Source: Oscillospiraceae bacterium
GTDB lineage: Bacteria; Bacillota; Clostridia; Oscillospirales; Ruminococcaceae
Length of the DNA stretch: 64,000 bases
NCBI GenBank assembly: GCA_017505635.1
Contig: JAFVOU010000007.1
Location: forward strand, 1 to 64,000
Reading direction: 5' to 3'
Numbering within the stretch: the stretch's first letter is position 1; each line of letters starts with the position of its first letter. The notes beneath the pieces are model-generated. The model saw only the letters and a list, made by a program, of their open reading frames with translations. It ran no database searches and had not been told where the DNA came from. Made by a program: the position numbers and the translations under genes. This document shows, piece by piece, positions 1,557 through 62,853 of this stretch.

Positions 1557-1673
1557 ATATTATTTTGCTTTTTTGTACCATAAAATTAAGATGAAATATT
1601 AATATCGGACAAAAGAAAAAAATTCAACCTTATACGCGGACACAGTTCCACTGTTAAAGAACGGAGGTGCCCA

Positions 1674-1997
1674 ATGAGACAGTTTTACAAACATATATAT
1701 GCGGATAAAGTATTGAAACAGTTCTACACATCCTGCGAGCTGTGCGGAAAAAAGAAGTATGCGGAAAAAATACCCGTACTGTGCCGCAATCCGTATATGC
1801 TTTATGCCTTTGAGCACGGACAGGTAAAGGACCCGCGGCAGACACTTTACAACCACAAAAAAGCAAAGTCGGTACAGCATCTGGTGCGTTTTTTCAACCA
1901 TTGTCAGCAGTGCGGCAAATGGGTGTGCGATGAGTGTTACGAAGCAAAAGGTGATATTGACGGATGCAGGGACTGTGTGGAACGGTTTTCAAAATGA
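1674..1997 (+). CDS. Cys-rich putative zinc-binding protein
   Basis: A 107-residue basic protein with no signal peptide. Two Cys groups are visible: CELCGKKK near residue 21, and CQQCGKWVCDECYEAKG followed by CRDC near the C-terminus. CxxC spacing of this kind is typical of zinc ribbon or treble-clef folds. The start is fixed by ACGGAGGTGCCC just before the ATG. It is the first gene downstream of the divergent regulator and starts a co-oriented run that encodes more zinc-ribbon proteins. I do not recognise a named family. It could be an adaptor or nucleic-acid-binding protein, but nothing in the sequence decides this. Confidence 0.7.
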   Translation: MRQFYKHIYADKVLKQFYTSCELCGKKKYAEKIPVLCRNPYMLYAFEHGQVKDPRQTLYNHKKAKSVQHLVRFFNHCQQCGKWVCDECYEAKGDIDGCRDCVERFSK

Positions 1998-2144
1998 TGT
2001 TTTGCTGATTCAAGTATAAACCATAAGCGGTTTTCAGTAAACAGTTAAACAGATTAAAACAACAGTAAAACTATCTGTTTTGTGACAAAAACTGCATATA
2101 AAACAACGGCAGAAAAATAAAATCAGGCAATCGGAGTGATGACT

Positions 2145-2429
2145 ATGAAAACAGAAAAAGGCCAGGCAATAAAATATTTTGAATATATGCAGCTGGCAAG
2201 AGAAGCTTTTGGCGGACTTTGTGAAAAGTATCCCGAATTTGCAAACCTTTCTGCAAGGGAGCTGGAGATATTTGAACAGCTTATGACCGACAAAACCCTG
2301 ACGGCTATTGCAGATAAGCTGTGTATAACACAGTCTGCGGTTCATTTTCACTGCAAGAACATCTACAAAAAGCTTGATATTTCCAACCGCAGACAATTAT
2401 TGATCAAATATAAAGAACTTTACATTTAA
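2145..2429 (+). CDS. Small LuxR-type HTH regulator
   Basis: A 94-residue protein that is almost only a DNA-binding domain. LSARELEIFEQLM, then AIADKLCITQSAVHFHCKNI and YKKLDISNRRQLL, match the GerE/LuxR helix-turn-helix. There is no receiver or sensor domain. In-frame GTG (2136) and ATG (2139) lie upstream, but GGAG at 2133-2136 is correctly spaced only for the ATG at 2145, so I use that start. A stand-alone HTH of this size can act as a constitutive or partner-dependent regulator. Its position inside the zinc-ribbon/lipoprotein run suggests local control (inference). Confidence 0.75.
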   Translation: MKTEKGQAIKYFEYMQLAREAFGGLCEKYPEFANLSARELEIFEQLMTDKTLTAIADKLCITQSAVHFHCKNIYKKLDISNRRQLLIKYKELYI

Positions 2430-2443
2430 AGGAGGTAACCGTA

Positions 2444-2995
2444 ATGGCATTTCTTGAAAAACTGAACAAAATGGCAAAAAACATCGAGGATAAAACAGGC
2501 GATGCACTGGAAATTTCAAAGCATACAGCCCAGAAAGCAAAAGAAGAAGCTGCCCACCGAGAAGACCTGCGTAAGATAGGCAAATTCTATTACGATTTTT
2601 ACCTTGCAGGCGGACAGATAGAAGCCGATATTATGGAGGTTATGGAAAGTGCAAAGGCTCACGCTGATGCAGTGGCACAGGCACAGGCAGCCATTGACGG
2701 CATCCGTGACGAAAATGCACTGGAAAAGGCCGAAAAACTGGCAGCAAAGGAAGCGCAGGCGGAAGCTGCTGCAGAAGAAGCAGTGCAGGAAGCGGCTGAA
2801 GAAACAGAAAATATAACGGAAGAACCTGTTGCCCAAGAAGCTGAACCGCCACAGCCTGAGGCGGAAATTGCACAGCCACAGCCTGAAGAAATCGGGCAGC
2901 CTGTGCCGACAGAGAGAATATGTTCTGTGTGCGGCAACAGAGTAGAGGCAGGGGTTAAATTCTGCGGTGAATGCGGAAACAAAATGGAGGTTTAG
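2444..2995 (+). CDS. Coiled-coil protein with C-terminal zinc ribbon
   Basis: A 183-residue cytoplasmic protein. The N-terminal ~115 residues are charged and Ala/Glu-rich with coiled-coil character. A Gln/Pro/Glu-rich linker (about 120-155) leads to a zinc ribbon, CSVCGNRVEAGVKFCGECGNK, with four Cys in two CxxC pairs. AAAGGAGGTAACC precedes the ATG. It lies 14 bp after the small HTH gene and 3 bp before the next zinc-ribbon gene, so the three are probably cotranscribed. Zinc-ribbon tails of this type are common in Clostridial proteins of unknown role, and no enzyme domain is visible. Confidence 0.75.
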   Translation: MAFLEKLNKMAKNIEDKTGDALEISKHTAQKAKEEAAHREDLRKIGKFYYDFYLAGGQIEADIMEVMESAKAHADAVAQAQAAIDGIRDENALEKAEKLAAKEAQAEAAAEEAVQEAAEETENITEEPVAQEAEPPQPEAEIAQPQPEEIGQPVPTERICSVCGNRVEAGVKFCGECGNKMEV

Positions 2996-2998
2996 ACT

Positions 2999-3898
2999 AT
3001 GAGTTTTTTGAAGAGAATGATTAAAGATGGTATACGTGAAGGCGTAAGCAATGCCATAGGCGATGCAGTTAAAGGTGCGGTGGAGCCTGCAGCAACAAAC
3101 CTTGCCAACAAGGCGGCGGCAAAGATTGAAGACGTGGCCGAAAAGGTAAATGCAGAGGCAGCAGAAAAGCAGGCCGAAACAAAATCTGCATTCTCAGGTC
3201 TTGAAGGTGCATTTGCAAACCTTGAAAAGGCAGCCCAGAGCTATGCAACAGAAATCAGCAAAAATATGAAGGTATGTCCTGAATGTAACACACCTACCGA
3301 TGCAGCAAAAAAATTCTGTCCTGAATGCGGTGCAAAGCTGCCGGAAGAAACAGTGGCAGACAGCTCTGTATGTAAAGAGTGCGGCACCCAGAATACCCCT
3401 GGCACAAAATTCTGTCAGGAATGTGGTGCAAAGCTGCCTGCGGCGGAAAAAGAAGAAGCCGACGCACAGGCAAAGGACAATGATGTTATGGCAACATGGG
3501 ATGAATATATGTCAATGTATCCAAAATGGACCTTCGGCGGCAAAGATATGGTGCTGGAGGATTACGGCGGACATATCTACTTTGGTATGACCTTCAATAC
3601 ATCCTTTGCAGCACAGAATGCTGTAAGACAGTACAAGGCACTGCTTGAAGACAACGGATTTGTGCAGGCAGGCAAATATCCAAGTGAAAACGAACTTTAC
3701 AAGATGATTGACGGTGTCTGCTATCATGTAAGTTTCTCCAACTGTTTTGAAAATGACCCTGAAAGACCTGGTATCTCCTTTGCAACAGGGGAACCGCAGG
3801 GCGGATTTGACTGGTCTCCACAGAAGGAAAAACAGAAGGAACGCGAAGAATTTATGGAGGGACTGAACAAGGTTAAAGGCCTTTTCGGTAAAAAATAG
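2999..3898 (+). CDS. Double zinc-ribbon protein, function unknown
   Basis: A 299-residue protein. Residues 1-90 form an Ala/Glu/Lys-rich amphipathic helical segment. Residues ~94-150 hold two tandem zinc ribbons (CPECNT...FCPECGAKLP and CKECGT...FCQECGAKLP). Residues ~160-290 form a globular region with YMSMYPKWTFGG and YGGHIYFGMTF that I cannot assign. There is no signal peptide. It starts 3 bp after the preceding zinc-ribbon gene, so the two are translationally close and likely partners. No catalytic signature is visible. The gene is complete and uses the same codons as its neighbours. Confidence 0.75.
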   Translation: MSFLKRMIKDGIREGVSNAIGDAVKGAVEPAATNLANKAAAKIEDVAEKVNAEAAEKQAETKSAFSGLEGAFANLEKAAQSYATEISKNMKVCPECNTPTDAAKKFCPECGAKLPEETVADSSVCKECGTQNTPGTKFCQECGAKLPAAEKEEADAQAKDNDVMATWDEYMSMYPKWTFGGKDMVLEDYGGHIYFGMTFNTSFAAQNAVRQYKALLEDNGFVQAGKYPSENELYKMIDGVCYHVSFSNCFENDPERPGISFATGEPQGGFDWSPQKEKQKEREEFMEGLNKVKGLFGKK

Positions 3899-4038
3899 CA
3901 TTTAAATTACTTTAATATATCGGTTGAAACCCATAAAACAACATAACAATAAATCTATAACACCATACTGCAAAGGCGGTTGGCGATACCGCCAGCCGCC
4001 TTTGCGCTTTTTGTATTAAGTAAAAGGGAGGTAAGACT

Positions 4039-5496
4039 ATGAAAAAACTTTTGGCCATTTTAATTTCACTTTCACTTTTTATCAGCCTTACAGCCTGTGG
4101 CGGCAGTACCCCTGCAGAAAACGGCGGTGAAGGTGCAAAACCAAACACCCAGACCACCCAGCAGGGCGGCAGCGAAAACAGCGGCCAGAATGGCGGGGCT
4201 GCATCTGCAGATATCGGCAGTGTTTCTGTTGAAAATTATGCAGAAATTGTAAAGAAAGCTTTTGGTATTGAAATTGTTTTAGATGACGGCTGGACAGTTA
4301 CAAAAGCCAGCAGCCCTAACGGCGTAAATAACATTATTGTAACTTTAACAGCTCCTGCAGACACAGACGGCAAAGCTGAAATTGAAAAATATTTCAATCA
4401 GTGTATAAATCTTGGCGGTGTGTGGCAGCAGAAGATTGACTGGGATACACTTGCAATCAGCAAGGGCACACAGTATACAGACTATGAAGAGTTTTACAGC
4501 ACAGAGGTTACAGATTTTCTGGGACTCTATTCTGCAATGTGGCTGTACGACTTTGACGGAAAAAATGTGCAGTTCAGCTATGCACAGGACGAAAATATTG
4601 TTGAACTGTCCTTTACATATACAGTGCTTGACTACGAAATTGACATCAGCGACTGGGTTCCGCAGGAAGGTCAGGGCCCTGAAGGCTGGACATGGCAGGA
4701 CTGCCACGGATATATCGACAATGTGTGGGACAGCGACACTCTGCCTGAAAACTTCCCGAAAGAAATCAGCGGCGTAAGGGTAAGCGAAACCCGTTATTTC
4801 GGCTTTGGCTGTGAAGACCGCTGGGCAGGTGCAAGGGTTGGCAATCTGAACTTTGACAGCTGGGATTTTGAACAGTGGCAGCTTACCTTTGATGCTACAG
4901 ATGACCAGTTTGCGCAGTTTGAACAGGCACTGGCTGACAACGGTTTCCTTGGCGAAAAGACAGAGGACAAATATCAGGGCACCTATGTGGAAACAACAGA
5001 CGGTGAAATCTATCTTTACTATTCAATAGATGAAAGTGACCGCGACGGCTATGACTGGAATGTTTACTGCAACATGACAGTGCTGGAAAGCAACTATCCA
5101 TTGTTCTTTGAAGGTATCGAACTGCCTACATGGGGACTGTTCCGTGGTGAACCTAACGACTATCTGGTTATTGCCTATGATGAAGAATTCAACGAAATCT
5201 ATGATTTTGAATACGATTTTGAAAACGGATGCTTTATTGATGAAGCTGCCTATATATACTATGACTTTAATTATATGGGCGTAGACAGAGCTACCTATGA
5301 CTACTATATTGACTATCTGCGTGGTATGCCAGGCGAAGAATGGAACGAATATGTTTACAGTGAAGAAAACGACAGTTATGTGGCTTACTTCAAGTACAAC
5401 GATAAATACTGGATTGGCTGTTATCACAACTTTGACGGTGATGAAAACTGCATGCAGCTGATTATTTCACCTGATGAGGAATCACTGTTCTGGTAA
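4039..5496 (+). CDS. Acidic lipoprotein, function unknown
   Basis: A 485-residue predicted lipoprotein. A short basic start and hydrophobic h-region end in LTAC, with the lipid-modified Cys at residue 20. A Gly/Gln/Ser/Asn-rich tether (to about residue 65) follows, then a long acidic, Tyr/Trp/Asp-rich extracytoplasmic region. No transmembrane segment follows the signal. The second half is dense in DYDE-like aromatic/acidic stretches. GGGAGGT precedes the ATG. It is the first of four lipoprotein genes in this run. I do not recognise the folded part. A binding or surface-display role is possible, but not shown. Confidence 0.75.
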   Translation: MKKLLAILISLSLFISLTACGGSTPAENGGEGAKPNTQTTQQGGSENSGQNGGAASADIGSVSVENYAEIVKKAFGIEIVLDDGWTVTKASSPNGVNNIIVTLTAPADTDGKAEIEKYFNQCINLGGVWQQKIDWDTLAISKGTQYTDYEEFYSTEVTDFLGLYSAMWLYDFDGKNVQFSYAQDENIVELSFTYTVLDYEIDISDWVPQEGQGPEGWTWQDCHGYIDNVWDSDTLPENFPKEISGVRVSETRYFGFGCEDRWAGARVGNLNFDSWDFEQWQLTFDATDDQFAQFEQALADNGFLGEKTEDKYQGTYVETTDGEIYLYYSIDESDRDGYDWNVYCNMTVLESNYPLFFEGIELPTWGLFRGEPNDYLVIAYDEEFNEIYDFEYDFENGCFIDEAAYIYYDFNYMGVDRATYDYYIDYLRGMPGEEWNEYVYSEENDSYVAYFKYNDKYWIGCYHNFDGDENCMQLIISPDEESLFW

Positions 5497-5584
5497 AAGG
5501 CTTTGAATAACACAAAATATGCAGAGGGCACACTGTGTTCGCCCTGCGCAGTTACATTGATATACACAAGAAGGAGGAATGCAG

Positions 5585-8260
5585 ATGAAAAGAATGATAT
5601 CATTTATGCTTTCCTTTGCTATGCTGTTTCAGCTGACAGCCTGTGGCGGAGGAACACCGTCTGCGGCAAATCCTGAAACAGAAAATCAGCCGCAGGCAGC
5701 ACCTGCTGCAGAAAGTCCTGAAAACTTTGAAAACATACCTGTTACAGAGCAGGAAAACGGCGACATTATACCGGCTACTGACGATTTTTACGCCAGTCAG
5801 CAGACTGTTTTTGCCCAGCTGAACGAAAAATCCATCGGTGCCAACAAGGATTTGATTGCCACCCTTAAAACTGCCCCAACTGTGCAGTACACTCTTGACG
5901 AAAAGGATTATAACTATACCTTTGAACTGAGTGTAAACGATACGGACAGCTGGACACCTTTTGTCAGCGGCAAAGAAACATCATTTGAAGTTTCGGATGA
6001 AAATCTTATCGACTATCAGATAAAAAACAAAAAGAACTTTTCTTTCACAGCAAGGGAAGCCGGAGAATGTGTGGTTACCGCCGCACAGAACGGCAAAATA
6101 TCCACGGCATTAATCAGGATACTGCCTGTGGAGGACGACCGCTCAACATCCAACAGTGTGGAATACTATATGCTGTATCTTGCCAACGAGCTGGCACCGC
6201 TGGAAAGTGAAGAAAAGGCAGATTATCTTATCAGTCTTGGTGACTATGCAGCAAATCTGCTGGCTTCGGGGCAGGTGGACGGCAACCTTGTCAACGCAAT
6301 GGCGGCAGCCTGTATGATTTATCCAAACACCTACCTTATCAACAACTATGCCGCACTGCTTATGGAGCGTGGTCAGTACAAGGAAGCACTGGTGTGGCTT
6401 GAGCAGGCGGATGAGGCAAACCCACACAATGTATTTATTCTCACCAATATGGGCGAATGTCATTACGAGCTTGGCAATTTCAGCAAGGCTCTTGCATACA
6501 CAGATAAGGCAATCAGCTGTCAGGAAGACTATGGCATCCCCCATCTTATACAGGCCTGCATCTATGCACAGCAGGGCACCTTTGAACAGTTTATCACATC
6601 CCTGTTCAAATCTGCCCGTGCCAGCTGGACAGATGTGCATACAAAACTGTTCAGAAAAGCATTGACCTATGTGACAGATTATGTTGACCGCTATGACAAA
6701 ATGCCTGTTACAAAAGAACATCTGGATATTCTTATGGAGGCGGCAAGCTACGGCACCACATCAGACGGCCGTGACAAACTGTCAGAGCAGATTTCCCTGC
6801 CATTCCCTGCACCTGTTACCTCTGCCTGTCTTACAGCAGAAAAAAGCTATTCCGACCAGGCAAGTGCTTTGTACGACCAGGTAAAGGCACTTTACTATGA
6901 CGCACGCTATTATGAGGGCTATGCCAACGGCAAGGATGACCGACATCACTTTATCGCCCGTTTCCATATTCTTTATTATGAATGGATGATTGAAGAAAAT
7001 GATGCGTCATACGCAATGTTCGGCGAAGAATATGACAGACTGGAAGCACAGTTTTATGAAAAGGCCAACTCTATAATAGAACCGGCAGAAGAAAAGATTG
7101 CAGAACTGCAGGCAGAGCTTTATGAAGCTGCAATGACTGCTGTTATGGGTATGATGCTTACACCTTTTGCTGATGACCCGGATGCTGTTTGGTCAATTGC
7201 TCAACAGAATGGCAAATTTGTTGAAGAATATTGGGAGCCATATCAGACAGAGATGACAAAAATCACTCTGGACGCCTATACAGAGGTGCAGAATATATGG
7301 CATACCGACCTTAAAAAGATGGAAGAAGCCAAAATGGACGGATACGAAACAATAACCCGTCCTATCCTTGAAGAATACTGGCAGCGTATGAACGCTATTC
7401 TTGGCTATATGACCAACGACACACAGCGCAAAAACTTTGAAAAACGGGTGCTGTGGACTATAAATACCGAAGGCATTACAGTACCCCTTGGTTATGCAGG
7501 CGTGGAACTCAGGGAAGTAAACAAATATGCCGGCACTATAAACGGATGCCGTGAAAAACTGCAGATGGCAGAAATCAAAAGGATAGAAGCAGCTAACCAG
7601 CAGGCACAGGCAAATGTACAGCAGGCAAAGCTGGAAAAAGCCAAGGCAGAACAGCAGCAGCGTTCCTCCAGCTATCAGCTGGGCTTCCCTCCATTCAGTC
7701 CTATCCAGGTTTATATCGGCTACACAGAAGATGGCAATATCAGCTATGGCTATGGTGCATTCGGTCACGATGTTATCTACGAACATGATTTCAAAACAGG
7801 CAACACATCCAAAAATGTTGCATCCACTACCCTTGCAGGTCTACCGGGCCTTGGGCAGCTGGACAAAACTGTTGCAGGTCTTAAAGACTTATATGACACC
7901 ATTGAAAACTTAAGGGATATCGAGGGTGCCCTTGTTACACTGGAAAATGTTGTGGGTATGGCAAAAGGCCAGATTGTAGCAGGCCTGCCAAGCGTTGACG
8001 CACGGGAAACCACAGGTTCTATCGAGGTGTATAACTCTGACGGCGAACTGATAGACCGATCCACCTACCGCACCACATCGGTTTCAGGCGGCGGTGGCCT
8101 GCTGGGAAGCACCGTGGAAACCACCACAACCAAATCACAGTACAAAGACCCGTTAAACGGCAAGGTTTCAAATGTTGTAAGAACACAGTCCAAAGGCAAA
8201 ATTACCGTGGGCGGCTTTACCTTTGAAGAAAATATAAGCGGTGCACTGCCGGGACATTAA
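5585..8260 (+). CDS. Large TPR-containing lipoprotein
   Basis: An 891-residue predicted lipoprotein (LTAC, Cys20). Residues ~60-190 look like a beta-rich Ig-like domain. Residues ~230-340 contain tetratricopeptide repeats, for example LINNYAALLMERGQYKEAL and ILTNMGECHYELGNFSKAL. A long helical region follows, and residues ~660-692 form a Gln/Ala/Lys-rich coiled coil. The tail is Gly/Thr-rich. An ATG at 5579 is too near the AGGAGG (5572-5577), so the ATG at 5585 is the better start. TPRs mediate protein-protein contacts, so this may scaffold other exported products of the cluster (inference). No enzyme motif is seen. Confidence 0.75.
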   Translation: MKRMISFMLSFAMLFQLTACGGGTPSAANPETENQPQAAPAAESPENFENIPVTEQENGDIIPATDDFYASQQTVFAQLNEKSIGANKDLIATLKTAPTVQYTLDEKDYNYTFELSVNDTDSWTPFVSGKETSFEVSDENLIDYQIKNKKNFSFTAREAGECVVTAAQNGKISTALIRILPVEDDRSTSNSVEYYMLYLANELAPLESEEKADYLISLGDYAANLLASGQVDGNLVNAMAAACMIYPNTYLINNYAALLMERGQYKEALVWLEQADEANPHNVFILTNMGECHYELGNFSKALAYTDKAISCQEDYGIPHLIQACIYAQQGTFEQFITSLFKSARASWTDVHTKLFRKALTYVTDYVDRYDKMPVTKEHLDILMEAASYGTTSDGRDKLSEQISLPFPAPVTSACLTAEKSYSDQASALYDQVKALYYDARYYEGYANGKDDRHHFIARFHILYYEWMIEENDASYAMFGEEYDRLEAQFYEKANSIIEPAEEKIAELQAELYEAAMTAVMGMMLTPFADDPDAVWSIAQQNGKFVEEYWEPYQTEMTKITLDAYTEVQNIWHTDLKKMEEAKMDGYETITRPILEEYWQRMNAILGYMTNDTQRKNFEKRVLWTINTEGITVPLGYAGVELREVNKYAGTINGCREKLQMAEIKRIEAANQQAQANVQQAKLEKAKAEQQQRSSSYQLGFPPFSPIQVYIGYTEDGNISYGYGAFGHDVIYEHDFKTGNTSKNVASTTLAGLPGLGQLDKTVAGLKDLYDTIENLRDIEGALVTLENVVGMAKGQIVAGLPSVDARETTGSIEVYNSDGELIDRSTYRTTSVSGGGGLLGSTVETTTTKSQYKDPLNGKVSNVVRTQSKGKITVGGFTFEENISGALPGH

Positions 8261-8302
8261 TATATTTAAACAGCACATTTATATAAAGAAAGGGGCGGCA
8301 AT

Positions 8303-9763
8303 ATGGGAAGATATAAAAAGCTGACAATTTTACATTCCAATGATATGCACGGCGACTTTACCGCCGAAAAACTGGACGAAAAGCTGACAGGTGGCGTAAG
8401 CATGCTGTCGGGTTATGTGGACAAGGTGCGCAGAGAAGAAAAAAACACCCTCTACTGCATTGCGGGGGATATGTTCCGCGGGTCAATTATCGACACCGAA
8501 TACAAGGGTTTAAGCACAATTGAAATTATGAACGCCCTTGCGCCTGATGTGGTTACAATAGGCAATCACGAAACCGATTACGGCATAGGGCATCTGCTGT
8601 TCCTTGAAAAATGTGCAAAATTCCCTATAATCAATGCAAATCTTTACATAAAAAGCAACTTTGCCCGCCTGTTTCAGCCCTATCTGATAAAGGAGATTGA
8701 CGGAATGAAAATCCTCTTTATCGGAGTTCTTACCGAAGAGGTTATGAATCAGACCAAAAAAGAGGATATTATCGGCAGCTTTGTGGATATACACGAGGCA
8801 GCAAAAGAGGTTGGCCGCATCTGCAACGCCTACCATGCTACAGATATCGATCTTACCGTGCTGCTTACCCACATAGGCTTTGAAGAAGACAAACGCCTTG
8901 CGGCAGAGCTTGATCCTGCATGGGGCGTGGATATCATCATCGGCGGTCACAGCCACACCTTTATCCAGCAGCCTGAAATTGTAAACGGCATTGCCATTGT
9001 TCAGGCAGGCACAGGCACCGACCAGATTGGCCGTTTTGACATTGAGGTGGACACCTACAACAACTGCATAGAAAGCTATGAGTGGAAAGCAGTCCCCATT
9101 GCCGAAGGCTGCCCAAGAGATGCAGATATAGAAAATATAATTAACGGCTACAAGGCACAGACAGACAAAAAATACGGCAGACCGATAACACGTTTTAAAC
9201 GGGAACTTACCCATCCTGCCAGAAATATGGAAACCGAACTGGGCGGTCTGGTGGCGGATATAATAAAGGAAAGTCTTGGTGTGGATATAGCACTGTTCGG
9301 CAGCGGCAGTATACGCAGAACACGCATGGGACCAATGGTGGTTTATCAGGACTTTATCGAATGCTTTGCCTACGATGACCCGCAGTATATGCTGGCAGTA
9401 ACAGGGGCACAGCTTAAAAGAATGCTTATGTTTATGCTGCGGGACGAAACCTGGCAGGGCGACCACTGCGAGTTTTATCAGCTGTCCAAAGGTTTGAAGG
9501 TGGTTTACGACAAGGCGAAAAGAGAGATGCTGGAATTTACTTTTGAAGGTGAAGCTATAGCTGACGACAGGCTGCTAAGGGTATGTATACAGAAATTCCA
9601 CTATCTCAACTTTGACGAGTTTTTCAGCGTACCGCTGGCAGAGGTTGCAGCAAACAAAAAGCCTGTTGTAGTCTCCACATCCACAAACGATATACTGGAA
9701 GAATACTTTATGGCGCATCAGCAGCTTGACCGCCAGCTTGACGGCAGGCTGACACTGATATAA
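8303..9763 (+). CDS. 5'-nucleotidase/metallophosphatase, no signal peptide
   Basis: A 486-residue protein of the UshA/CpdB-like family. The N-terminal metallophosphatase domain has the expected metal motifs: SNDMHGDF near residue 11, GDMFRG, GNHETDYG, LLTHIGFEED and GGHSHTF. The C-terminal 5'-nucleotidase domain (about 290-486) has GGLVADIIKE and GSGSIRRTRMG, where substrate contacts lie in the family. Such enzymes hydrolyse nucleotides, 2',3'-cyclic nucleotides or nucleotide sugars and are usually exported. This one starts MGRYKKLTILHSND with no leader, so it should be cytoplasmic. AAAGGGGCGGC precedes the ATG. It sits between lipoprotein genes in the unknown cluster. Confidence 0.85.
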   Translation: MGRYKKLTILHSNDMHGDFTAEKLDEKLTGGVSMLSGYVDKVRREEKNTLYCIAGDMFRGSIIDTEYKGLSTIEIMNALAPDVVTIGNHETDYGIGHLLFLEKCAKFPIINANLYIKSNFARLFQPYLIKEIDGMKILFIGVLTEEVMNQTKKEDIIGSFVDIHEAAKEVGRICNAYHATDIDLTVLLTHIGFEEDKRLAAELDPAWGVDIIIGGHSHTFIQQPEIVNGIAIVQAGTGTDQIGRFDIEVDTYNNCIESYEWKAVPIAEGCPRDADIENIINGYKAQTDKKYGRPITRFKRELTHPARNMETELGGLVADIIKESLGVDIALFGSGSIRRTRMGPMVVYQDFIECFAYDDPQYMLAVTGAQLKRMLMFMLRDETWQGDHCEFYQLSKGLKVVYDKAKREMLEFTFEGEAIADDRLLRVCIQKFHYLNFDEFFSVPLAEVAANKKPVVVSTSTNDILEEYFMAHQQLDRQLDGRLTLI

Positions 9764-9879
9764 AGCACAAAACAAGACAAAGAACAAAAAAGGGAATGTT
9801 ATCTGCAAAAAAACATACCCAAAAAAGTTTACAGCAACTTTATTGACATAAAATCAATATCAACAAGGGAGACGAAATT

Positions 9880-11718
9880 ATGAAAAAATTGTTATCAATT
9901 ATTATTGCTCTGGCAATGATGCTGTCTCTTGCTGCTTGCGGCAGCAGCACCCCTGCACCCGAAGACACAGGCGGCGAGCAGCAGAATGAACAGCAGGGCG
10001 GCACCCATCAGAACGGTGAACTGACACAGACAGAAAAGGAAAAACTGGTTTCAACAGTGCTCAATCTGTCTGCTTTCGGCAAAGACAGCGAAGACAACCC
10101 TTACAAATGGCTGGTGCTTGATGTCGACACAGAAAACAAAAAAGCACTGCTGATTATGGACGGCTATATTGACACTATGTATATGTTTGCAGACGATGAA
10201 GTGCATACATGGGAAAACAGTCAGATAAGAGAATATCTTAATTTTCAGCCAAATATGGATGTAATGTTTACTGCCGAAGAACAGGAATTTATCCTCGAAA
10301 CAGCCGTATCAAACCCTGCAAACCCAAAAACAGGCGTTTCTTCCGGTAAAGACACAACAGACAGACTGTTCCTCCTCAGTGCACAGGAAATGGAAAAATA
10401 CTTTGAAAATCCGGAAGACCGTGTGGTTTATGATGCGGAGGGCAACCCTGTTGGCCAGTACCTGCGCACAGCAGGCGGGGAAGAAAGCTACTTTGCAATG
10501 ATTATACAGGACAACAGCGGCGAAATTGACTATAACGGCAGCTATGGCTACTCCGGTGCTTACGCTATCCGCCCTGCAATGTGGGTGGATGTTTCCGGTG
10601 CGGATTTATCCGTGCAGCCAAATGCAAAACCATCACAGTCATCTGAAACAGACGTACAGCTTGGCACACTGCAGATTTTTGACAAATCAGCCATTACTGC
10701 CATCAGAATTGAAGGCGAAAACAGCGGAGTGCTGAATGACCGCCAACCTGCCACAACAGGTATTTGCAGCGTTTTTGAACATGACGAATGGGTACAGTTT
10801 TATCCTGTGGGTGATGCTGAAGAAATAGATATATACTATTTAGCCCATGATGAAAAAGCTGATTACAGTAAAGTTGAAGCTGAATGGGTGTACGAAAATG
10901 GTGTATTTTTCACGCGCCTTTATAATCAGAAAAATGAATCATTCCCTGACGGCTACTGGGGAGCTACATATGTAGACCGGGATATGAAAACCGGATATTT
11001 CGACCTGGTTTTCACATCAGGCGGAAAAATAGTGGCAGTTATGACAATTCAGGTGTTTGAAGAGGATGGTCTGCAGAATTACACAGATGCAGAACTTATC
11101 GCTCTTAACGACGGCACAGCAACTGCTGAAACAGTAAAGGAACAGGCTGCAACCGAAAAAGAACAGCCAAAAGCAGAAGGCGGCATGGACCTTGCAGGAT
11201 TTATGGGCACAAAGACGGGTAAATTCTACAGTCAGTTTACAGACGAAAAAATGTATATGAAGTACGAAACTGTAATGGATGGTATGACAATGACCGTTAT
11301 CTCTGCCACAAAGGGCGATAAAGTTTATTCCGAAAGCATTGTGGACGGCGTAAGCAGCGGCGTTACAATTATGGACGGAGAAAAAATGTATGTTATTGAT
11401 CACGCAAGCAAAATGATTATCACAATGGCGCTTAATACAGATGCTATGACAATCGCAAACACAATCGTGGAAGAAAGTGACGTTGATATGGGTGACCTTG
11501 TAAAAGGCACAAAGGAAATTGACGGCAAAAAATATGACACAGAAGAATGGCTTGTGGAGGGAGAAAGCGCAGTGATGTGCTTTGACGGCAACGACCTTAA
11601 ATATATGATTTCCACAATTGACGGTATGGAGATGGTTATCAAGGTTGTGGAAATTTCCAATAAGGTTGATGATAAGCTGTTTGAACTTCCAAGCGGATAT
11701 ACACAATTTGCAATGTAA
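9880..11718 (+). CDS. Lipoprotein with DUF6273-like and LolA-like regions
   Basis: A 612-residue lipoprotein (LAAC, Cys20) with a Gly/Gln/Glu-rich tether. Residues ~77-237 carry the pattern of DUF6273: YKWLVLDV, WENSQIREYLN, DRLFLLSAQE, a QYLRT segment and YAIRPAMWVDV. A middle region (~265-400) is beta-rich. The last ~185 residues (YSQFTDEKMYMKYETVM onward, ending KLFELPSGY) resemble LolA/LppX-type lipoprotein-carrier or DUF4412-like domains. Function is unknown for such proteins in Firmicutes. GGGAG precedes the ATG. The upstream 116-bp gap could hold its own promoter. Confidence 0.7.
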   Translation: MKKLLSIIIALAMMLSLAACGSSTPAPEDTGGEQQNEQQGGTHQNGELTQTEKEKLVSTVLNLSAFGKDSEDNPYKWLVLDVDTENKKALLIMDGYIDTMYMFADDEVHTWENSQIREYLNFQPNMDVMFTAEEQEFILETAVSNPANPKTGVSSGKDTTDRLFLLSAQEMEKYFENPEDRVVYDAEGNPVGQYLRTAGGEESYFAMIIQDNSGEIDYNGSYGYSGAYAIRPAMWVDVSGADLSVQPNAKPSQSSETDVQLGTLQIFDKSAITAIRIEGENSGVLNDRQPATTGICSVFEHDEWVQFYPVGDAEEIDIYYLAHDEKADYSKVEAEWVYENGVFFTRLYNQKNESFPDGYWGATYVDRDMKTGYFDLVFTSGGKIVAVMTIQVFEEDGLQNYTDAELIALNDGTATAETVKEQAATEKEQPKAEGGMDLAGFMGTKTGKFYSQFTDEKMYMKYETVMDGMTMTVISATKGDKVYSESIVDGVSSGVTIMDGEKMYVIDHASKMIITMALNTDAMTIANTIVEESDVDMGDLVKGTKEIDGKKYDTEEWLVEGESAVMCFDGNDLKYMISTIDGMEMVIKVVEISNKVDDKLFELPSGYTQFAM

Positions 11719-11777
11719 AAAATGTAGTATCAAGAGTAAGCGACAAACAACTTTTAACGGGAAAAGGAGAAAATGAT

Positions 11778-12386
11778 ATGAAAAAGCTCGTTTATACAAT
11801 TGCGATAATGCTGCTGGCCTTTTCCCTTACCGCCTGTGTTACCATAAATGTGGTTGCGCCTGAAGGCGAAGCACAAAAAGAACAGCAGACAGAAAACACC
11901 CAGCAAAGCACACAGCAGGAACCACAGGTGCAGCAGCCTGTGCAGACACCTGCAGGCACAGAAACGGAAAACACAGAAAGTTCTGCAGAAAAAACACAGC
12001 AGCCACAGCAAAGCTATGAAGAACTGGAACAGCTTTACAGCATCTGGTCACAGCTTGTGGGATACTGGAATGCTGCCGAAAACCACTTTGCACTGGTGGA
12101 TATGATGGATAGCCACACCGCCTGCTTTGCCGACGGTATGTGGGAGACGGAATATTACCGTGAATGTATTGTGGCACAGCTGTACAAAGACGGCGAACAA
12201 CAGCTGTGGGCGGTGATAAACACAGACGGCACACAGGAAAATGTGCTGATAGATTACAGCGGTATTGAACAGGACGGAAAAATAAGGATAAAAATTGGCG
12301 AAGATGAGTGGCGGCAGTATATGTTTGCAGGCAACACAATGGACGAAGCCTATCAGACATACTGCGACAACACCTACGGCGGATAA
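11778..12386 (+). CDS. Small Gln-rich lipoprotein
   Basis: A 202-residue predicted lipoprotein with signal MKKLVYTIAIMLLAFSLTAC, the Cys at 20. Residues ~30-85 are low-complexity, rich in Gln, Thr, Glu and Pro, consistent with a cell-wall-spanning tether. The C-terminal ~110 residues (SIWSQLVGYWNAAENHFALV onward) form a compact domain with a lipocalin-like alternation of strands that I cannot name. AAAAGGAGAAAATGAT precedes the ATG. The next zinc-ribbon membrane gene starts 23 bp after its stop, so the two are probably cotranscribed. Confidence 0.7.
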   Translation: MKKLVYTIAIMLLAFSLTACVTINVVAPEGEAQKEQQTENTQQSTQQEPQVQQPVQTPAGTETENTESSAEKTQQPQQSYEELEQLYSIWSQLVGYWNAAENHFALVDMMDSHTACFADGMWETEYYRECIVAQLYKDGEQQLWAVINTDGTQENVLIDYSGIEQDGKIRIKIGEDEWRQYMFAGNTMDEAYQTYCDNTYGG

Positions 12387-12409
12387 TTACAGAAAAAGAG
12401 GTGAATTTT

Positions 12410-13123
12410 ATGGCAAAAATCTGTAAACAGTGTGGCAGTGAAATAGAACAGGGCAAAAAATTCTGTACCGAATGCGGTGCTTCTGCGGCTGAAGCAGTGG
12501 AAAAAGAAATTCCAAAAGCAGATAACTCACAGAAATACACATATACACAGACACAGCAGACATATACACAACAGCCACAGTCTGCTGACCCTGATGCACC
12601 TCCGCCAAAGGGCAGCAAATACGAGGTGGTTACAACAAAAGAATTTATCGGCATATCACTGCTTATGCTGATACCTGTTGTGAACATTGTGCTGCTTATC
12701 GTGTGGTCACTGGGCGGCTGCAGAAAAATCAACAAGCGCAATATGGCAAGAGCTTCGCTTATTATGATGGTTATCACACTTATCATAAGCCTGATTGTGG
12801 GTATGGCGGTTAAGGCACTGTTTAACAAAGCTCTGGAAGAAGCGGGACTAAGCTTTGAAAACGGACAGTTTGTTGTGGAGGAAAACAGCGACAGCGAAAT
12901 TGGCAGGCTGCTTGGAACAATCTCCGACTTCAAAAACGGAGAAATGACACCTGAGGATATTGCAGGTCTGCTTGGGGCTGTAACAGGCGAAGAGTTTGAC
13001 ACAAGCCAGTTTGAAGAAATGCTCGGCAGTATAACAGGTGAAGATGGGCAGATAGATATGTCACAGCTGGAAGAAATACTGGGGCAGCTTGAAGAGATAA
13101 GCGGCGAAGGAGCGGAAGAGTAA
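12410..13123 (+). CDS. Membrane protein with N-terminal zinc ribbon
   Basis: A 237-residue protein. It opens with a zinc ribbon (CKQCGSEIEQGKKFCTECG, residues 4-22), then a Gln/Thr/Pro-rich linker. Two hydrophobic segments follow at about 83-103 and 118-138, separated by GGCRKINKRNMARAS, and then a long acidic tail with EEMLG and EEILG-like repeats. This resembles zinc-ribbon membrane proteins widespread in Clostridia. A longer in-frame start at 12308 would overlap the upstream lipoprotein; AGAGGTG is spaced correctly for the ATG at 12410. It is the last gene of the cluster and is followed by a strong hairpin. Confidence 0.75.
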   Translation: MAKICKQCGSEIEQGKKFCTECGASAAEAVEKEIPKADNSQKYTYTQTQQTYTQQPQSADPDAPPPKGSKYEVVTTKEFIGISLLMLIPVVNIVLLIVWSLGGCRKINKRNMARASLIMMVITLIISLIVGMAVKALFNKALEEAGLSFENGQFVVEENSDSEIGRLLGTISDFKNGEMTPEDIAGLLGAVTGEEFDTSQFEEMLGSITGEDGQIDMSQLEEILGQLEEISGEGAEE

Positions 13124-13191: not shown

Positions 13192-13225
13192 GGAGTTATC
13201 CTGCCATTTGCGGCAGGATAACTCC
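13192..13225 (+). terminator. Perfect 14-bp hairpin downstream of cluster
   Basis: GGAGTTATCCTGCC and its exact complement enclose a 6-base loop, followed by ATATTTTTAT. This is a likely terminator for the lipoprotein/zinc-ribbon cluster. The T-run is interrupted, so efficiency is uncertain. Confidence 0.6.
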
Positions 13226-13393: not shown

Positions 13394-13891
13394 ATGAACG
13401 AAAAACAGTATACTTTGGCACAGGCAATATAGTTTTTTGTAAGGCACAGCGAGATAAAAGGATTGGCAAAAGACACCATAAAATCCTACAGACTTTACAC
13501 AACCAAGTTCGCAGAATGGATAGGGGAAGAAACCCCGCTGTCTGACATAACCATCAATGATATTGAGGAGTATATGGAATACAAAAGGCTTGGTGGCAAC
13601 AAGGCTGTTTCTGTAGCAACCAATGTCCGCAATCTCCGCTGTTTTTTCAATTTCTGTTCCAAAAGAAAGATGATGGAACATTTGGAAATCATAATGCCAA
13701 GATACGAAAAAGAACTTAAAGAACCTTATTCAGATTATGAAATGGCTCTGCTGTTGGTTAAACCAAAAGGAGACAGTTGGACAGAATACAGAAATTGGGC
13801 GATGGTCAACTATTTCTTTGCAACGGGACAGCGGTTATCCACAGTTATACACATCAGAGTCAAGGATGTAGACCTTGTAAGCAAAAGACTG
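13394..13891 (+). pseudogene. Tyrosine recombinase remnant with in-frame TAG
   Basis: With a good RBS (CGGAGGGATAAAA) the frame opens MNEKQYTLAQAI, meets TAG at 13430-13432, and continues in the same frame as FFVRHSEIKGLAKDTIKSY. This is the SAM-like core-binding domain of phage-type integrases. The frame runs into the catalytic domain (YFFATGQRLSTVIHIRVKDVD, containing the first catalytic Arg), then homology stops near 13891 and unrelated sequence follows. The HxxR and Tyr motifs are absent. A TTG at 13463 could restart translation, but the missing C-terminus means no active recombinase. It marks a former integrative element. Confidence 0.75.
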
Positions 13892-13892
13892 T

Positions 13893-14200
13893 TGGTTTGC
13901 TGTGGCTGTAAACAATCAGCTTTTCTTCACCATATTCATCATCTTCGAGGACAGCGGATGCTTCCTCCATTGTGCTTATTTCATCTTCGTGTTCCAACAG
14001 ATAGAAAGCTTTGTTGATTTCTTTTATATATTCACAGATAGACCTTACATTTGCGGAAATGCCGTAGTCAGATTTATCATTTCCGCTGTTACTCGTTTGT
14101 TTTCATCGGTGTTTTTCAGCAGATATTGCATAACAAAGAAAGGCTTCATCTTCTGATTGTCTCTTTTGCCTTTTGCGGAATTGTTCGGTTCTTTAGCCAA
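13893..14200 (-). pseudogene. WYL-type regulator N-terminal fragment, frameshifted
   Basis: Reading leftward from a TTG at 14200 behind AGAGGTG, the frame gives MAKEPNNSAKGKRDNQKMKP and FFVMQYLLKNTDENKRVTAE. It then needs a frame change near 14070 to continue as YGISANVRSICEYIKEINKA and FYLLEHEDE. This is the N-terminal HTH part of WYL-domain regulators found in Clostridial mobile elements. The WYL domain itself is missing: the sequence runs into the truncated integrase. It is a decayed regulator, fused head-on to another remnant by deletion. Confidence 0.6.
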
Positions 14201-24437: not shown

Positions 24438-24481
24438 CGGCTTGTATGGGCTTTGCACAAGGCCCGGAAAGGATGTTGAGA

Positions 24482-25054
24482 TTGAAAGAATTATTTGATA
24501 TATATTTAAAGTTTTTCAAGATAGGTGCAGTAACCTTTGGCGGCGGATATGCAATGCTGCCTATTCTGCGCCGTGAAATTGTGGAAAAGGAAAAATGGCT
24601 CAGCGAAGAAGCAGTGATGGACTTTTATGCCATCAGCCAGAGTATGCCGGGCATTATTGCAATAAACGTAGGTTCATTTATCGGCTATCAGCGCCGCAAA
24701 AAACTGGGTGCGGCAGCGGCAGCACTTGGGGTTGTGTCTCCATGTATTATTATCATCACAATCATTGCGACCTGCCTTTCCAACTTTCAGGACAATGTAT
24801 ATGTCCGCCATGCTTTAAGTGCGGTGTCGGTGTGCGTGTGTGCCCTTATTCTGGACAGCATAGTGGCAATGTGGAAAAAGGGTGTAAAGGACATTTTCGG
24901 CATGGTGGTTTTTGCAATTATGCTGGTGCTTATGACCTTTACCGAAACCAGCCCTGTGCTGCTGGTTGTACTCAGTGCTGTGTGTGGCATAATCTGCAAA
25001 TCCTTGCAGGAACGCAATAAAGCCAAAACAGAAAAAGGAGGTAACGAGAAATGA
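24482..25054 (+). CDS. Chromate transporter family, first half
   Basis: About 190 residues, one half of a ChrA-type transporter. FKIGAVTFGGGYAMLPILRR is the family's N-terminal signature, followed by ISQSMPGIIAINVGSFIGYQ and three or more further helices. Two short genes, each encoding one CHR domain, are the usual arrangement in Firmicutes and assemble as a heterodimer. In-frame starts at 24446 (ATG), 24473 (ATG) and 24482 (TTG) exist; GGAAAGG at 24466-24472 favours TTG 24482. The substrate is uncertain: many Firmicute CHR pairs have no demonstrated link to chromate. Confidence 0.85.
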   Translation: MKELFDIYLKFFKIGAVTFGGGYAMLPILRREIVEKEKWLSEEAVMDFYAISQSMPGIIAINVGSFIGYQRRKKLGAAAAALGVVSPCIIIITIIATCLSNFQDNVYVRHALSAVSVCVCALILDSIVAMWKKGVKDIFGMVVFAIMLVLMTFTETSPVLLVVLSAVCGIICKSLQERNKAKTEKGGNEK

Positions 25055-25614
25055 TTTATCTCCGTCTTTTCTTTGAGTTTTTCAAAATCGGACTTTTTGC
25101 AGTAGGCGGCGGCATGGCAACACTGCCGTTTTTGCAGCGCCTTGGCGAAAGTACCGGCTGGTTTGACAATCAGCTTATCACCGATATGGTGGCAATCAGC
25201 GAATCTACACCGGGACCTATCGGCATAAATATGGCAACATACGTTGGATACAATGTTGCAGGTTTCTGGGGCGGTTTTGCAGCAACAATGGGCGAAGTTT
25301 TGCCCTGCGTTATGCTGGTGATACTGTTCTCAAAATTTCTTGATAAGCTCAGCGGTAACAAATATCTGGACTATGCCTTTTACGGTATGCGTCCTGCAGT
25401 GACAGGCCTTATTGCTGCAGCAGCAGTTTCAATTATGCAGGTGTCAATTTTAAATACTGAACTGTTTAAGCAGACAGGCAGCATAGCCGACCTTGCAGAC
25501 CCTAAAAAGATAATTTTCTTTGTGCTGATATACCTGGCTATAAAGAAATTTAAAAAGCATCCTGTTGCCTATATTGCGGTATCTGCAGTTGCCGGACTGG
25601 TGTTTGCATTCTGA
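25051..25614 (+). CDS. Chromate transporter family, second half
   Basis: A 187-residue CHR-domain membrane protein. It starts MIYLRLFFEFFKIGLFAVGG, then GMATLPFLQRL, ISESTPGPIGINMATYVGYN and the GF.GGFAATMGEVLPC segment. The ATG overlaps the stop of the first half by 4 bp and sits behind AAAGGAGGTAAC, so the two halves are made together. About six hydrophobic segments are visible. No metal-binding cluster is seen. The pair is co-oriented with the peptide importer, but a terminator-like hairpin lies before it, so a functional link is only a possibility. Confidence 0.87.
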   Translation: MIYLRLFFEFFKIGLFAVGGGMATLPFLQRLGESTGWFDNQLITDMVAISESTPGPIGINMATYVGYNVAGFWGGFAATMGEVLPCVMLVILFSKFLDKLSGNKYLDYAFYGMRPAVTGLIAAAAVSIMQVSILNTELFKQTGSIADLADPKKIIFFVLIYLAIKKFKKHPVAYIAVSAVAGLVFAF

Positions 25615-60100: not shown

Positions 60101-62065
60101 TTATTGTAATTTTTCAATAATATTATTCCAAAAGTATGTAAACTGTGATTCATTATCTTTGAGTACAGCATTAAATATTTTCTTTTTAAGAATAGTATCT
60201 TTTATGCCATACAAATTTCCAAAATAACTACAAGTTCTATTAAAAACTATTTTACCATCACAAATGGTTTTCCAGTTATTATCCCATTGAGTATGGTTGT
60301 ATTCCTGTTCCATGTTATCAAATTTTATAGTCATATTATTAATAAATTCTTCTATGACATTTTCTGATAAGAGATCTTTTACATAATTAGAAAAATCATC
60401 TTTAGAAGAAACAATGATATTACGTTGATTAACGCGTTTCGACAATCCTTTTATATAAGTATCGAGTTCATAATTCAAATATTTTTTCTTTGTTATTTCT
60501 AAAGATTCATTTGCAAAATCTTTCATTTTATTCGAAATAATCATAGGATCAATTTGCTCTTCTGAAACATCTTGCAAAAAATTATTTAAAATCGTGGCAA
60601 TGATTTGTTCATCAAGTAAAAAATTTTCAATTTCATGCACAGGAAGGAAAGAAATATGCTTATCAAAATAGTTTGGGTCGTCCTCTCTCAGCTTTTGTAT
60701 TTTACTATCGCTTCTCGTATCGCGGTCCAATATAAATACAAATTTAGGAACAGTGACAAGTTCTTTAACTTTTGTTAAGCTATTATATACTTGAAGTATT
60801 TCTGTGCAATTCCCCAACATCTTGATTTTTATATTATATTGATTACATAGGTCTGATAAATTATCGGTTTCAGTTTTACCTTCTACAAACAATACTTTAT
60901 CTTCGACAAAACTAATACCACAATTGCGTAATATGGTTTCACATTCTTCCTTTGATACTGGAGTTAATCCGTTATTATCTGTTATATAGTTAATCCCTAT
61001 TGAAAAATTATTATAAATTAAACTTTTTGAGTGTGTTATAAGAAAAACTTGACCAATTTTGATATGGTAATCTTCTTTTTCAAAAATTTCTTGTAAGGAA
61101 AGAACAAATTTCCAAGCTAATTGTTCATGAAGATGGTTTTCAGGCTCATCAATGATAAGTAGTCCTATGTTTTTTAGGTAGTTTAGGATCAACAATACAT
61201 ACCATATTAATTTTTCTCCAGAACTTAAATTTCGGGCATCATATTTAACATTTTTATGTGAAGGCATTATATTCTTGGCAATGAGGATAAATTGATTTTC
61301 TATTTCTTTGCCTGAAAAGTTGCTTATAGCAATACCATCCATTATTTCAGAAAACATTGCCATACTTTTATGAACAAAATCATCATTACGAGGCTTTTGT
61401 GGATTAAGCCTTTCATATAAGTATGCATTCATCATAATATCATACATATGTTGATAAATATTTTTAGGATCTAAAACAAAATCAATTATAGGACTATTGT
61501 TTTTACCCGATATCAAATTGATTTTATCATATCCAAAATCTTCTTCGTATACATTTTTATCTGCATTAAGCATTACGATAATATTTGAAGGATCTTGTAA
61601 ATTCCAAAAATTTAATAAGATTTCCTTTTCTTTTTGGCAGTCAGTTGAGATGGACCACTCACAAGTTAATCCTGTTATCTTTGAAGCATTAAGTGTTAGT
61701 GTTACAGAATGATCCTCTGTCATGGAGAGATGTATACCTACATTATTAAGGTCTATGTCGGAAAATGTGATGGTGAGAGAAATTGAAGCTTGTCTGTCAG
61801 AAGCTAAAGAAGCTATCTCTCTTGCAACTTTTTGTCGATGACTTGGTTCATCGGAAGATATAATATCAAGATTTAACACATCTTCTGGTTCTAGCAAATC
61901 AACAAAAAAAGCTTTTTGAAGCAACATAATGCTTTCAAAAATTGTACTTTTTCCTGAACCATTTTTCCCACTTACAGTGTTTAAAAAAGAATCATTATGC
62001 AATTCAATAATAGTATGATTTTTATATCTTTTTATATTGTTTAAAACTATTCGATTTAATAACAC
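60101..62065 (-). CDS. ABC/SMC-like ATPase fused to TOPRIM (DUF4435-like) domain
   Basis: A 654-residue protein. The N-terminal ATPase has Walker A SGKNGSGKST (about 32-41), signature LSSGEK (~285), Walker B LLIIDEPENHLHE (~305) and a switch His in LITHSKS. It is followed by VLFVEGKTETDNL (Glu ~391) and FVFILDRDTRSD (~446), the Glu and Asp-x-Asp signature of TOPRIM nucleases, then HEIENFLLDEQII, as seen in DUF4435. ATPase plus TOPRIM occurs in OLD nucleases and in PARIS defence (AriA with AriB, sometimes fused). It starts with GTG behind CAGGAG. It is A+T-rich and lies 41 bp after the methyltransferase gene, in the same direction. Confidence 0.78.
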   Translation of the reverse strand: MLLNRIVLNNIKRYKNHTIIELHNDSFLNTVSGKNGSGKSTIFESIMLLQKAFFVDLLEPEDVLNLDIISSDEPSHRQKVAREIASLASDRQASISLTITFSDIDLNNVGIHLSMTEDHSVTLTLNASKITGLTCEWSISTDCQKEKEILLNFWNLQDPSNIIVMLNADKNVYEEDFGYDKINLISGKNNSPIIDFVLDPKNIYQHMYDIMMNAYLYERLNPQKPRNDDFVHKSMAMFSEIMDGIAISNFSGKEIENQFILIAKNIMPSHKNVKYDARNLSSGEKLIWYVLLILNYLKNIGLLIIDEPENHLHEQLAWKFVLSLQEIFEKEDYHIKIGQVFLITHSKSLIYNNFSIGINYITDNNGLTPVSKEECETILRNCGISFVEDKVLFVEGKTETDNLSDLCNQYNIKIKMLGNCTEILQVYNSLTKVKELVTVPKFVFILDRDTRSDSKIQKLREDDPNYFDKHISFLPVHEIENFLLDEQIIATILNNFLQDVSEEQIDPMIISNKMKDFANESLEITKKKYLNYELDTYIKGLSKRVNQRNIIVSSKDDFSNYVKDLLSENVIEEFINNMTIKFDNMEQEYNHTQWDNNWKTICDGKIVFNRTCSYFGNLYGIKDTILKKKIFNAVLKDNESQFTYFWNNIIEKLQ

Positions 62066-62106
62066 TTTAAACGTCTCCTGAGTTATATATGTAATATTTA
62101 TTTTAA

Positions 62107-62853
62107 TTACTTCCTAAAAACAAACAAATATTCATGCCCAATCAACAGGAAATTGTACTTTACACTATTTGTTTTCCAATAACCTGTTGCACGGCAGTTA
62201 TGTTGTTCTTTTATTATCAATTCTTTAAGTTTAAAACCTGCATCTTGAAAAATTTTCATAACCTCAAAAGACATCGGTATCATATGTCCTTTCTGGCGGG
62301 TGTCACCCATAAGGATTGCACAGAACTTGTCCTTTTTCAGTACACGGTAGCTCTCCTGGGCTACCTTTTTCATTTCTTCAAGAAAATCTTTTACTTTGAG
62401 CAAAGACAAATCTTCCGGGATATCTTCACTGTAATGAATAATATCAGCGTATGGTGGGTGTGTGCATATTAAATCGATGCTTTCATCAGGGATAAAGTGC
62501 AGATTTCGAGCATCACCTTTATGTAAGAAAACTTGTCCTTTTGCAGGCTCATAGTCAAAGTCAATTTTTTCTTTGCAGCGTTCGAGAGCAACATCATTTA
62601 CATCTACTCCAATTATATTTCTGTTAAGCAGTTTTGCTTCAACAAGAGTAGTACCGCCACCTGCAAACTGGTCAAGAACCAAATCGCCTTCCTTTGAATA
62701 TCTCAAAAGGATATTTCTTGGAATGTATGGTGACCAGTTGCCACGCCATTTTGCATCGTGTGTAGCCCAGTTGCCTCTGTCCGGAAAACTCCAAACTGTA
62801 GTCATTTCCAGCTCAAAGTCATCAGGTTCCCATTTTTTGATTTTCTTCCCCAT
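62107..62853 (-). CDS. DNA (N4-cytosine/N6-adenine) methyltransferase
   Basis: A 248-residue amino-methyltransferase. The SAM motif I is VLDQFAGGGTTLVEAKLLNR, followed by IIGVDVNDVALERC; the catalytic motif IV is THPPYAD; LMGDTRQKGHM and KYNFLLIGHEYLFVFRK complete it. Motif I precedes motif IV, so this is not the usual beta-class order. Whether it modifies adenine or cytosine cannot be told from THPPY. The ATG overlaps the stop of the endonuclease gene by one base (TAATG). It should protect the site cut by the DpnII-family endonuclease encoded immediately upstream. Confidence 0.88.
   Translation of the reverse strand: MGKKIKKWEPDDFELEMTTVWSFPDRGNWATHDAKWRGNWSPYIPRNILLRYSKEGDLVLDQFAGGGTTLVEAKLLNRNIIGVDVNDVALERCKEKIDFDYEPAKGQVFLHKGDARNLHFIPDESIDLICTHPPYADIIHYSEDIPEDLSLLKVKDFLEEMKKVAQESYRVLKKDKFCAILMGDTRQKGHMIPMSFEVMKIFQDAGFKLKELIIKEQHNCRATGYWKTNSVKYNFLLIGHEYLFVFRK

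Follow-up and report, generated by a model that had tools for sequence, protein, structure and literature searches.

A membrane LuxR regulator and its conserved operator-like repeat mark a probable inducible surface-protein regulon in Oscillospirales

Introduction

LuxR regulators with 10–12 transmembrane (TM) segments were described by Dong et al. (2022) in Eggerthella lenta as substrate-induced activators of neighbouring enzymes, and the 12-TM members of that species match their inducer with the substrate of the enzyme (PMC9734109). The regulator considered here, g0, resembles DadR, HcdR, and CadR of E. lenta in its many-TM N-terminus, its C-terminal GerE HTH, and its adjacent presumed targets (PMC9734109). 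A limited literature search found neither an operator for 10–12-TM LuxR regulators nor a description of a gene cluster with the make-up reported below. The locus lies in a window of 64,000 nucleotides, the whole stretch of DNA that was analysed, which corresponds to positions 1–64000 of contig 4 of a 2.06-Mb, 98% complete genome of a ruminant-gut bacterium; its nearest named relatives, which are Oscillospiraceae, are MAGs recovered from the rectum of goat and roe deer. A preliminary description had proposed that ten genes of the window form one undescribed envelope-linked system. Our reading, to which we assign a probability of roughly 0.6 as a whole, is that the block, which is horizontally variable, forms an inducible surface regulon with g0 as the putative ligand-responsive activator of a divergent promoter; confidence in the promoter architecture alone is higher.

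Results

The divergent regulator on the minus strand was numbered g0 (4–1455), and the ten plus-strand genes g1–g10. These ten open reading frames are collinear over 1674–13123, with intergenic gaps of 3–147 nt from g1 to g10, and g0 bounds them on the left; both features had been noted in the preliminary description and were found as given. g0 encodes 483 aa with a predicted N-terminal domain of ~12 TM segments (11 Kyte-Doolittle peaks of at least 1.6, which by this rough method agrees with 10–12 segments), followed by a C-terminal GerE HTH (PF00196, 66.8 bits at residues 420–475). In the first part of the cluster, g1 (1674–1997, 107 aa) is Cys-rich (CxxC..C..CxxC) and treble-clef-like; g2 (2145–2429, with an alternative GTG start at 2136; 94 aa) is a bare LuxR/GerE HTH, as previously recognized (PF00196, 51.9 bits); g3 (2444–2995, 183 aa) has a helical N-terminus and a C-terminal zinc ribbon (PF13240, 26 bits); and g4 (2999–3898, 299 aa) combines a helix, two zinc ribbons (PF12773, 51 bits), and a C-terminal α/β domain. 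With g10 (12410–13123, 237 aa), which carries an N-terminal zinc ribbon (PF13240, 28 bits) and TM segments at 80–98 and 116–134, these had been counted as four zinc-ribbon proteins; the ribbons of g3, g4, and g10 pass Pfam cut-offs, whereas all hits of g1 are subthreshold. Like GerE-type proteins, g2 is a stand-alone HTH of ~94 aa lacking a receiver domain, but its gene accompanies that of a 12-TM LuxR and no sporulation context was seen.

The four lipoproteins of the preliminary description all have visible lipoboxes. They are g5 (4039–5496, 485 aa, LTAC), with repeated α/β modules in the predicted model; g6 (5585–8260, alternative start 5579; 891 aa, LTAC), a TPR protein (TPR_1, 34 bits); g8 (9880–11718, 612 aa, LAAC); and the small g9 (11778–12386, 202 aa, LTAC). 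Residues 91–237 of g8 match DUF6273 (PF19789, 59.5 bits), a domain to which Pfam assigns no function; compared with other DUF6273 proteins, g8 sits in a LuxR-linked lipoprotein cluster. The AlphaFold2 model of g5 (mean pLDDT 62.5) and the predicted structure of g4 (about 62) gave no PDB match at E ≤ 0.001 in Foldseek, and the PsbP/LpqN-like hits of g5 were weak. We do not propose a shared fold for the C-terminal domain of g4 and the domains of g5 or other lipoproteins, as the matches in profile comparison were short, with a best E of 7e-5 in a one-target comparison and a probability below 10%. Domains like those of g5 were also found in G367, from yet another family, as separate lipoprotein genes adjoining a zinc-ribbon gene.

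The cluster is interrupted by a feature that the preliminary description missed. Between g4 and g5, where a single operon would have no internal terminator, lies a terminator-like hairpin on the plus strand (3969–4006; 17 pairs, loop of 4, then CTTTTT with its T5 run). Because this strong hairpin ends only 32 nt before the start of g5, g5–g10 would depend on read-through or a further promoter and, given its strong-terminator form, may be a unit of their own or one that is expressed weakly. The hairpin is kept in G005; at the same place, G001 has a hairpin of different sequence with no T run. At the end of the cluster, the proposed perfect terminator was retained in part: the 14-bp stem at 13192–13225 is perfect, but its T tract is interrupted and weak in both directions.

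The spacer between g0 and the cluster carries a 22-bp operator-like inverted repeat, AAAACCCCTTGAATAAGGGAT, with its core ACCCCTTGAATAAGGGAT at 1541–1558 on the plus strand and a footprint that reaches the AAAA on the left. Spacers from different loci cannot otherwise be aligned and have AAAACCCCTTGAATAAGGGAT in common; mean identity across seven lineages is 84% in the 22-bp block, against 33% in the 5′ flank, 39% in the spacer, and 35% in the 3′ flank. The G554 version reads CCCTC-GATA-GAGGG, a symmetric change that preserves the inverted repeat. A −10 hexamer facing the cluster (TATAAT, TAAAAT, or TACAAT) begins 31 nt downstream of the repeat centre in eight of nine loci and 32 nt downstream of it in the ninth; in the window, it is TAAAAT at 1581–1586 (plus strand), at 31 nt. 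No comparable arrangement was seen in the direction of g0 in those nine loci. The summed match to TATAAT at the 31-nt spacing is 34 of 42, a value reached by none of 20000 shuffles. As G001/G011 and G396/G068 are close pairs, the independent loci number about seven, and all those compared are on MAG-type contigs, several of them truncated. The repeat centre falls at about −43, overlapping the −35 position, in eight of the nine loci, as in a class-II LuxR-type promoter (centre near −42); about −43 is the classical class-II position for LuxR activators. This geometry makes a dedicated, inducible regulon the most likely interpretation of the block, and the position is consistent with ligand-dependent activation of its neighbours by g0. 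The gene content, its linkage, and the geometry of operator and promoter were established computationally.

With up to three mismatches allowed, the 2.06-Mb genome contains a single copy of the inverted repeat. A scan of 394 genomes of the order returned only two non-self hits with zero or one mismatch, in G396 and G068, and both lie ~33–35 bp upstream of g0 homologues that came from a separate protein search. Since those homologues were found independently, the hits amount to a blind confirmation of the operator. Two-mismatch hits elsewhere in the order did not coincide with g0 genes and were treated as chance. G772, with a distant relative of g0 (37% identity), has neither the operator nor the cluster neighbours, and the operator is therefore not general to every 12-TM LuxR. 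Separately, G210 contains a candidate second, weaker copy upstream (5 mismatches), and contig C48 of G268 (L088, ~497–540) contains a candidate related operator, ATCCCCCTATATTGGG, ~33 nt before a TATAAT and upstream of a bare LuxR gene.

Orthologues of g0 are rare: they were found in 7 of 348 family genomes and 7 of 394 order genomes, with one distant relative among 184 genomes of the class. They occur in five further genera from two families, divergent from genes of the g1/g2/g3/g4 type, and every informative locus has g0 divergent from the cluster. Within the genus, a profile search of 16 genomes detected g0 in G001, G005, G011, and the window genome only, and a search of 81 relatives for g6 returned full-length or near-identical copies only from the same three congeners. 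Among the 16 congeneric genomes, g0 and g6 are present together in 4/4 and absent together in 12/12, a pattern expected once in 1820 if the genes were independent (simple counting, with phylogeny ignored). The order in G001 and G011 is g0/g2-g3-g4-g6′-g7-g8-g9-g10-g5-g6, and in G005 two contigs carry g4-g6′-g5-g6 and g6-g7-g8, respectively; the window has no g6′, and its g5-g6 pair lies between g4 and g7. In these three congeners (L034:4528-7002, L036, and L037), g6′ encodes a further TPR lipoprotein that has diverged from g6 to 29% identity. Gene content is therefore linked and order labile, which bears out the expected conservation of the cluster only partly: the genes co-occur and g0 stays beside zinc-ribbon and/or bare-LuxR genes, but the g5-g6 pair moves and g6′ comes and goes. 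Identities to the window proteins in G001/G011 are about 75% for g5 and 82% for g6; in G001, they are 67% for g8 and 49% for g9.

Outside the genus, G169 has g0/g1-g3-g4 on a contig that ends after g4, G210 has g0/g2-g3, and G554 has g0/g1-g4-g3-[TM + zinc ribbon]-g10. The bracketed gene, L101:15694-16719, lies within the g0-linked cluster and encodes a polytopic membrane protein whose C-terminus carries a zinc ribbon. G268 carries g0/g1-g4 on one contig and, on another, g2, a truncated g4-like gene, and genes for an exported protein, a lipoprotein, and g10. G068, from another family, has g0/g2-g4 followed by genes for a protein with signal peptide and SLH domain, a lipoprotein, and a DUF4870-like protein, and G396, from the genus of G068, retains g0/g2-lipoprotein only. 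By gene, g1 orthologues adjoin g0 in G169, G268, and G554; g2 does so in G001, G011, G210, G068, and G396; g3 is conserved in G001, G011, G169, G210, and G554; and g4 orthologues in G001/G011, G268, G169, and G068 are 49–55% identical. These loci identify g0 with g1/g2/g3/g4-type genes as the stable core, and the exported part varies.

The same loci bear on which HTH protein would bind the repeat. The HTH of g2 belongs to the family of the g0 HTH, and g2 adjoins the promoter in the five genomes just listed, so g2 could be the binder, with g0 as its membrane partner or as the sensor of something else. We consider this quite unlikely: G554 keeps the operator next to g0 and has no g2 on this side, an arrangement that speaks for g0 as the binder, and no g2 was seen on the G169 contig, as far as it extends past g0 to its end after g4.

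The gene g7 (8303–9763, 486 aa) encodes a 5′-nucleotidase-like metallophosphoesterase. Like the 5′-nucleotidase/UshA family (3ivd, CD73), it has both PF00149 and PF02872 and keeps the catalytic motifs (profile match to PDB nucleotidase 3ivd, E 1.6e-37). Unlike those proteins, it starts with MGRYKKLTILHSNDMHGDF and has no signal peptide, hydrophobic or TM segment, or surface anchor of a secreted 5′-nucleotidase, in line with the leaderless enzyme of the preliminary description; it is thus presumably cytosolic. The block could then be a substrate-induced metabolic regulon in which a phosphoester or nucleotide, sensed by g0, induces g7 and the lipoproteins help to bind the substrate. Such a scheme would suit the intact catalytic motifs and the pairing of inducer with enzyme substrate by the 12-TM LuxRs of E. 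lenta (PMC9734109), yet it appears rather improbable: g7 was seen solely in the genus of the window and not beside g0 in other genera, which retain zinc-ribbon or lipoprotein genes there, and it is one gene of ten, cytosolic among products that are mostly exported or membrane-bound.

Evidence for a link between the inner and outer faces of the membrane comes from the exported protein of G268 (L088:2973-4313), which has a signal peptide, an ectodomain, one TM helix (397–415), and a C-terminal zinc ribbon that scores below the Pfam cut-off, yet has both CxxC pairs. Its ectodomain is 57% identical to that of the SLH-anchored protein of G068 (L130:4171-5829); one ectodomain thus carries an S-layer anchor in G068 and, in G268, a zinc ribbon that is presumably cytosolic. 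This fusion, a single case involving proteins absent from the window, is the strongest backing for the earlier pairing of zinc ribbons with exported proteins and would indirectly back a trans-envelope link. With a LuxR-type HTH set over zinc-ribbon proteins and membrane proteins, the block also recalls envelope-stress responses of the PspA/Lia/YdjGHI type, in which the zinc-ribbon proteins would be membrane-stress partners; this resemblance is a lead only. Genes for PspA, PspC, LiaF, SPFH, and histidine kinases were not found in the block with Pfam and NCBIfam, and we regard this assignment as highly improbable. A PADLOC search of the block for known defence proteins gave only HTH or low-scoring coiled-coil/ribbon matches.

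The block behaves like a movable island, as judged from draft, mostly metagenome-derived contigs in which misjoins are possible. In G005, an aldehyde dehydrogenase gene adjoins the g0 end of the cluster; in the window genome, that gene lies apart from the cluster, within contig 26. On the right side, homology with noncarrier congeners starts only at about 15.97–16.35 kb of the window. Just past the cluster, at 13463–14017, is a broken tyrosine-recombinase gene with only the SAM-like domain PF13495, a likely integration scar. Searches for the operator and g0 in viral contigs and for g4 in plasmids found none of them, so no vehicle was identified. The integrase remnant, the differing chromosomal positions in G005 and the window genome, and the varying order and content would also fit unrelated lipoprotein and zinc-ribbon genes that accreted in a variable island and form no functional unit. 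That account is very unlikely, in our judgment, as the operator, the promoter spacing, and the core of g0 with g1/g2/g3/g4 recur across six genera and two families. Elsewhere in the window, 60101–63728 is a restriction-modification locus: it encodes a DpnII-type restriction endonuclease (PF04556, 363 bits), an N6/N4 DNA methyltransferase, and an ATPase of the AAA_15 family whose tail may be TOPRIM-like and which may be an OLD-like partner. Two short neighbouring genes at 24446–25614 resemble chromate transporters (ChrA), and PF02417 confirms the first of them.

Discussion

From the operator, we infer that the cluster genes are targets of g0, and the reading of the block as an inducible surface regulon can be laid out as a sequence of proposed steps. 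The ~12-TM g0 would sense a signal at or in the membrane, and its C-terminal HTH would bind the 1541–1558 repeat, overlapping the −35 position with its centre at about −43. RNA polymerase would then be recruited to the −10 at 1581–1586, and transcription would enter g1–g4, with g2 as a possible second, small LuxR factor (feed-forward). The lipoprotein genes g5–g10 would be expressed by read-through of 3969–4006 or from a further promoter. The cytosolic and membrane zinc-ribbon proteins are probably scaffolds or adaptors at the inner face, and the lipoproteins would be displayed on the outside. In this scheme we infer that g0 is the binder and activator, that a signal acts on it, that read-through takes place, and that the products serve as scaffolds and at the surface.

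The earlier view of one envelope-linked system is supported in part. It agrees with the co-occurrence of the genes (g0 and g6 in 4/4 carriers and 0/12 others) and with the single conserved operator and promoter facing the cluster; it has to accommodate labile gene order, lipoprotein sets that differ between genera, a genus-restricted g7, and a hairpin that splits the zinc-ribbon genes from the lipoprotein genes. The term envelope-linked itself is backed indirectly, mainly by the ectodomain-TM-zinc-ribbon fusion of G268. A stronger version, in which the products form a trans-envelope device whose inner-face zinc ribbons couple physically to surface lipoproteins or S-layer-type proteins, and the transporter-like membrane LuxR reads an external compound and binds its dedicated operator directly, is offered tentatively and is, on balance, unlikely.

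If the inducible surface regulon is correct, an anonymous lipoprotein cluster gains a switch open to assay and a way towards its signal. It would also take the membrane-LuxR activators beyond the metabolic enzymes of Coriobacteriia, into a surface-protein regulon of Oscillospirales, and give them a concrete operator-promoter architecture. In E. lenta the targets are molybdenum or flavin enzymes (PMC9734109), whereas g0 faces zinc-ribbon and lipoprotein genes; unlike DadR, HcdR, and CadR, g0 belongs to a rare Oscillospirales subfamily with a conserved operator defined here.
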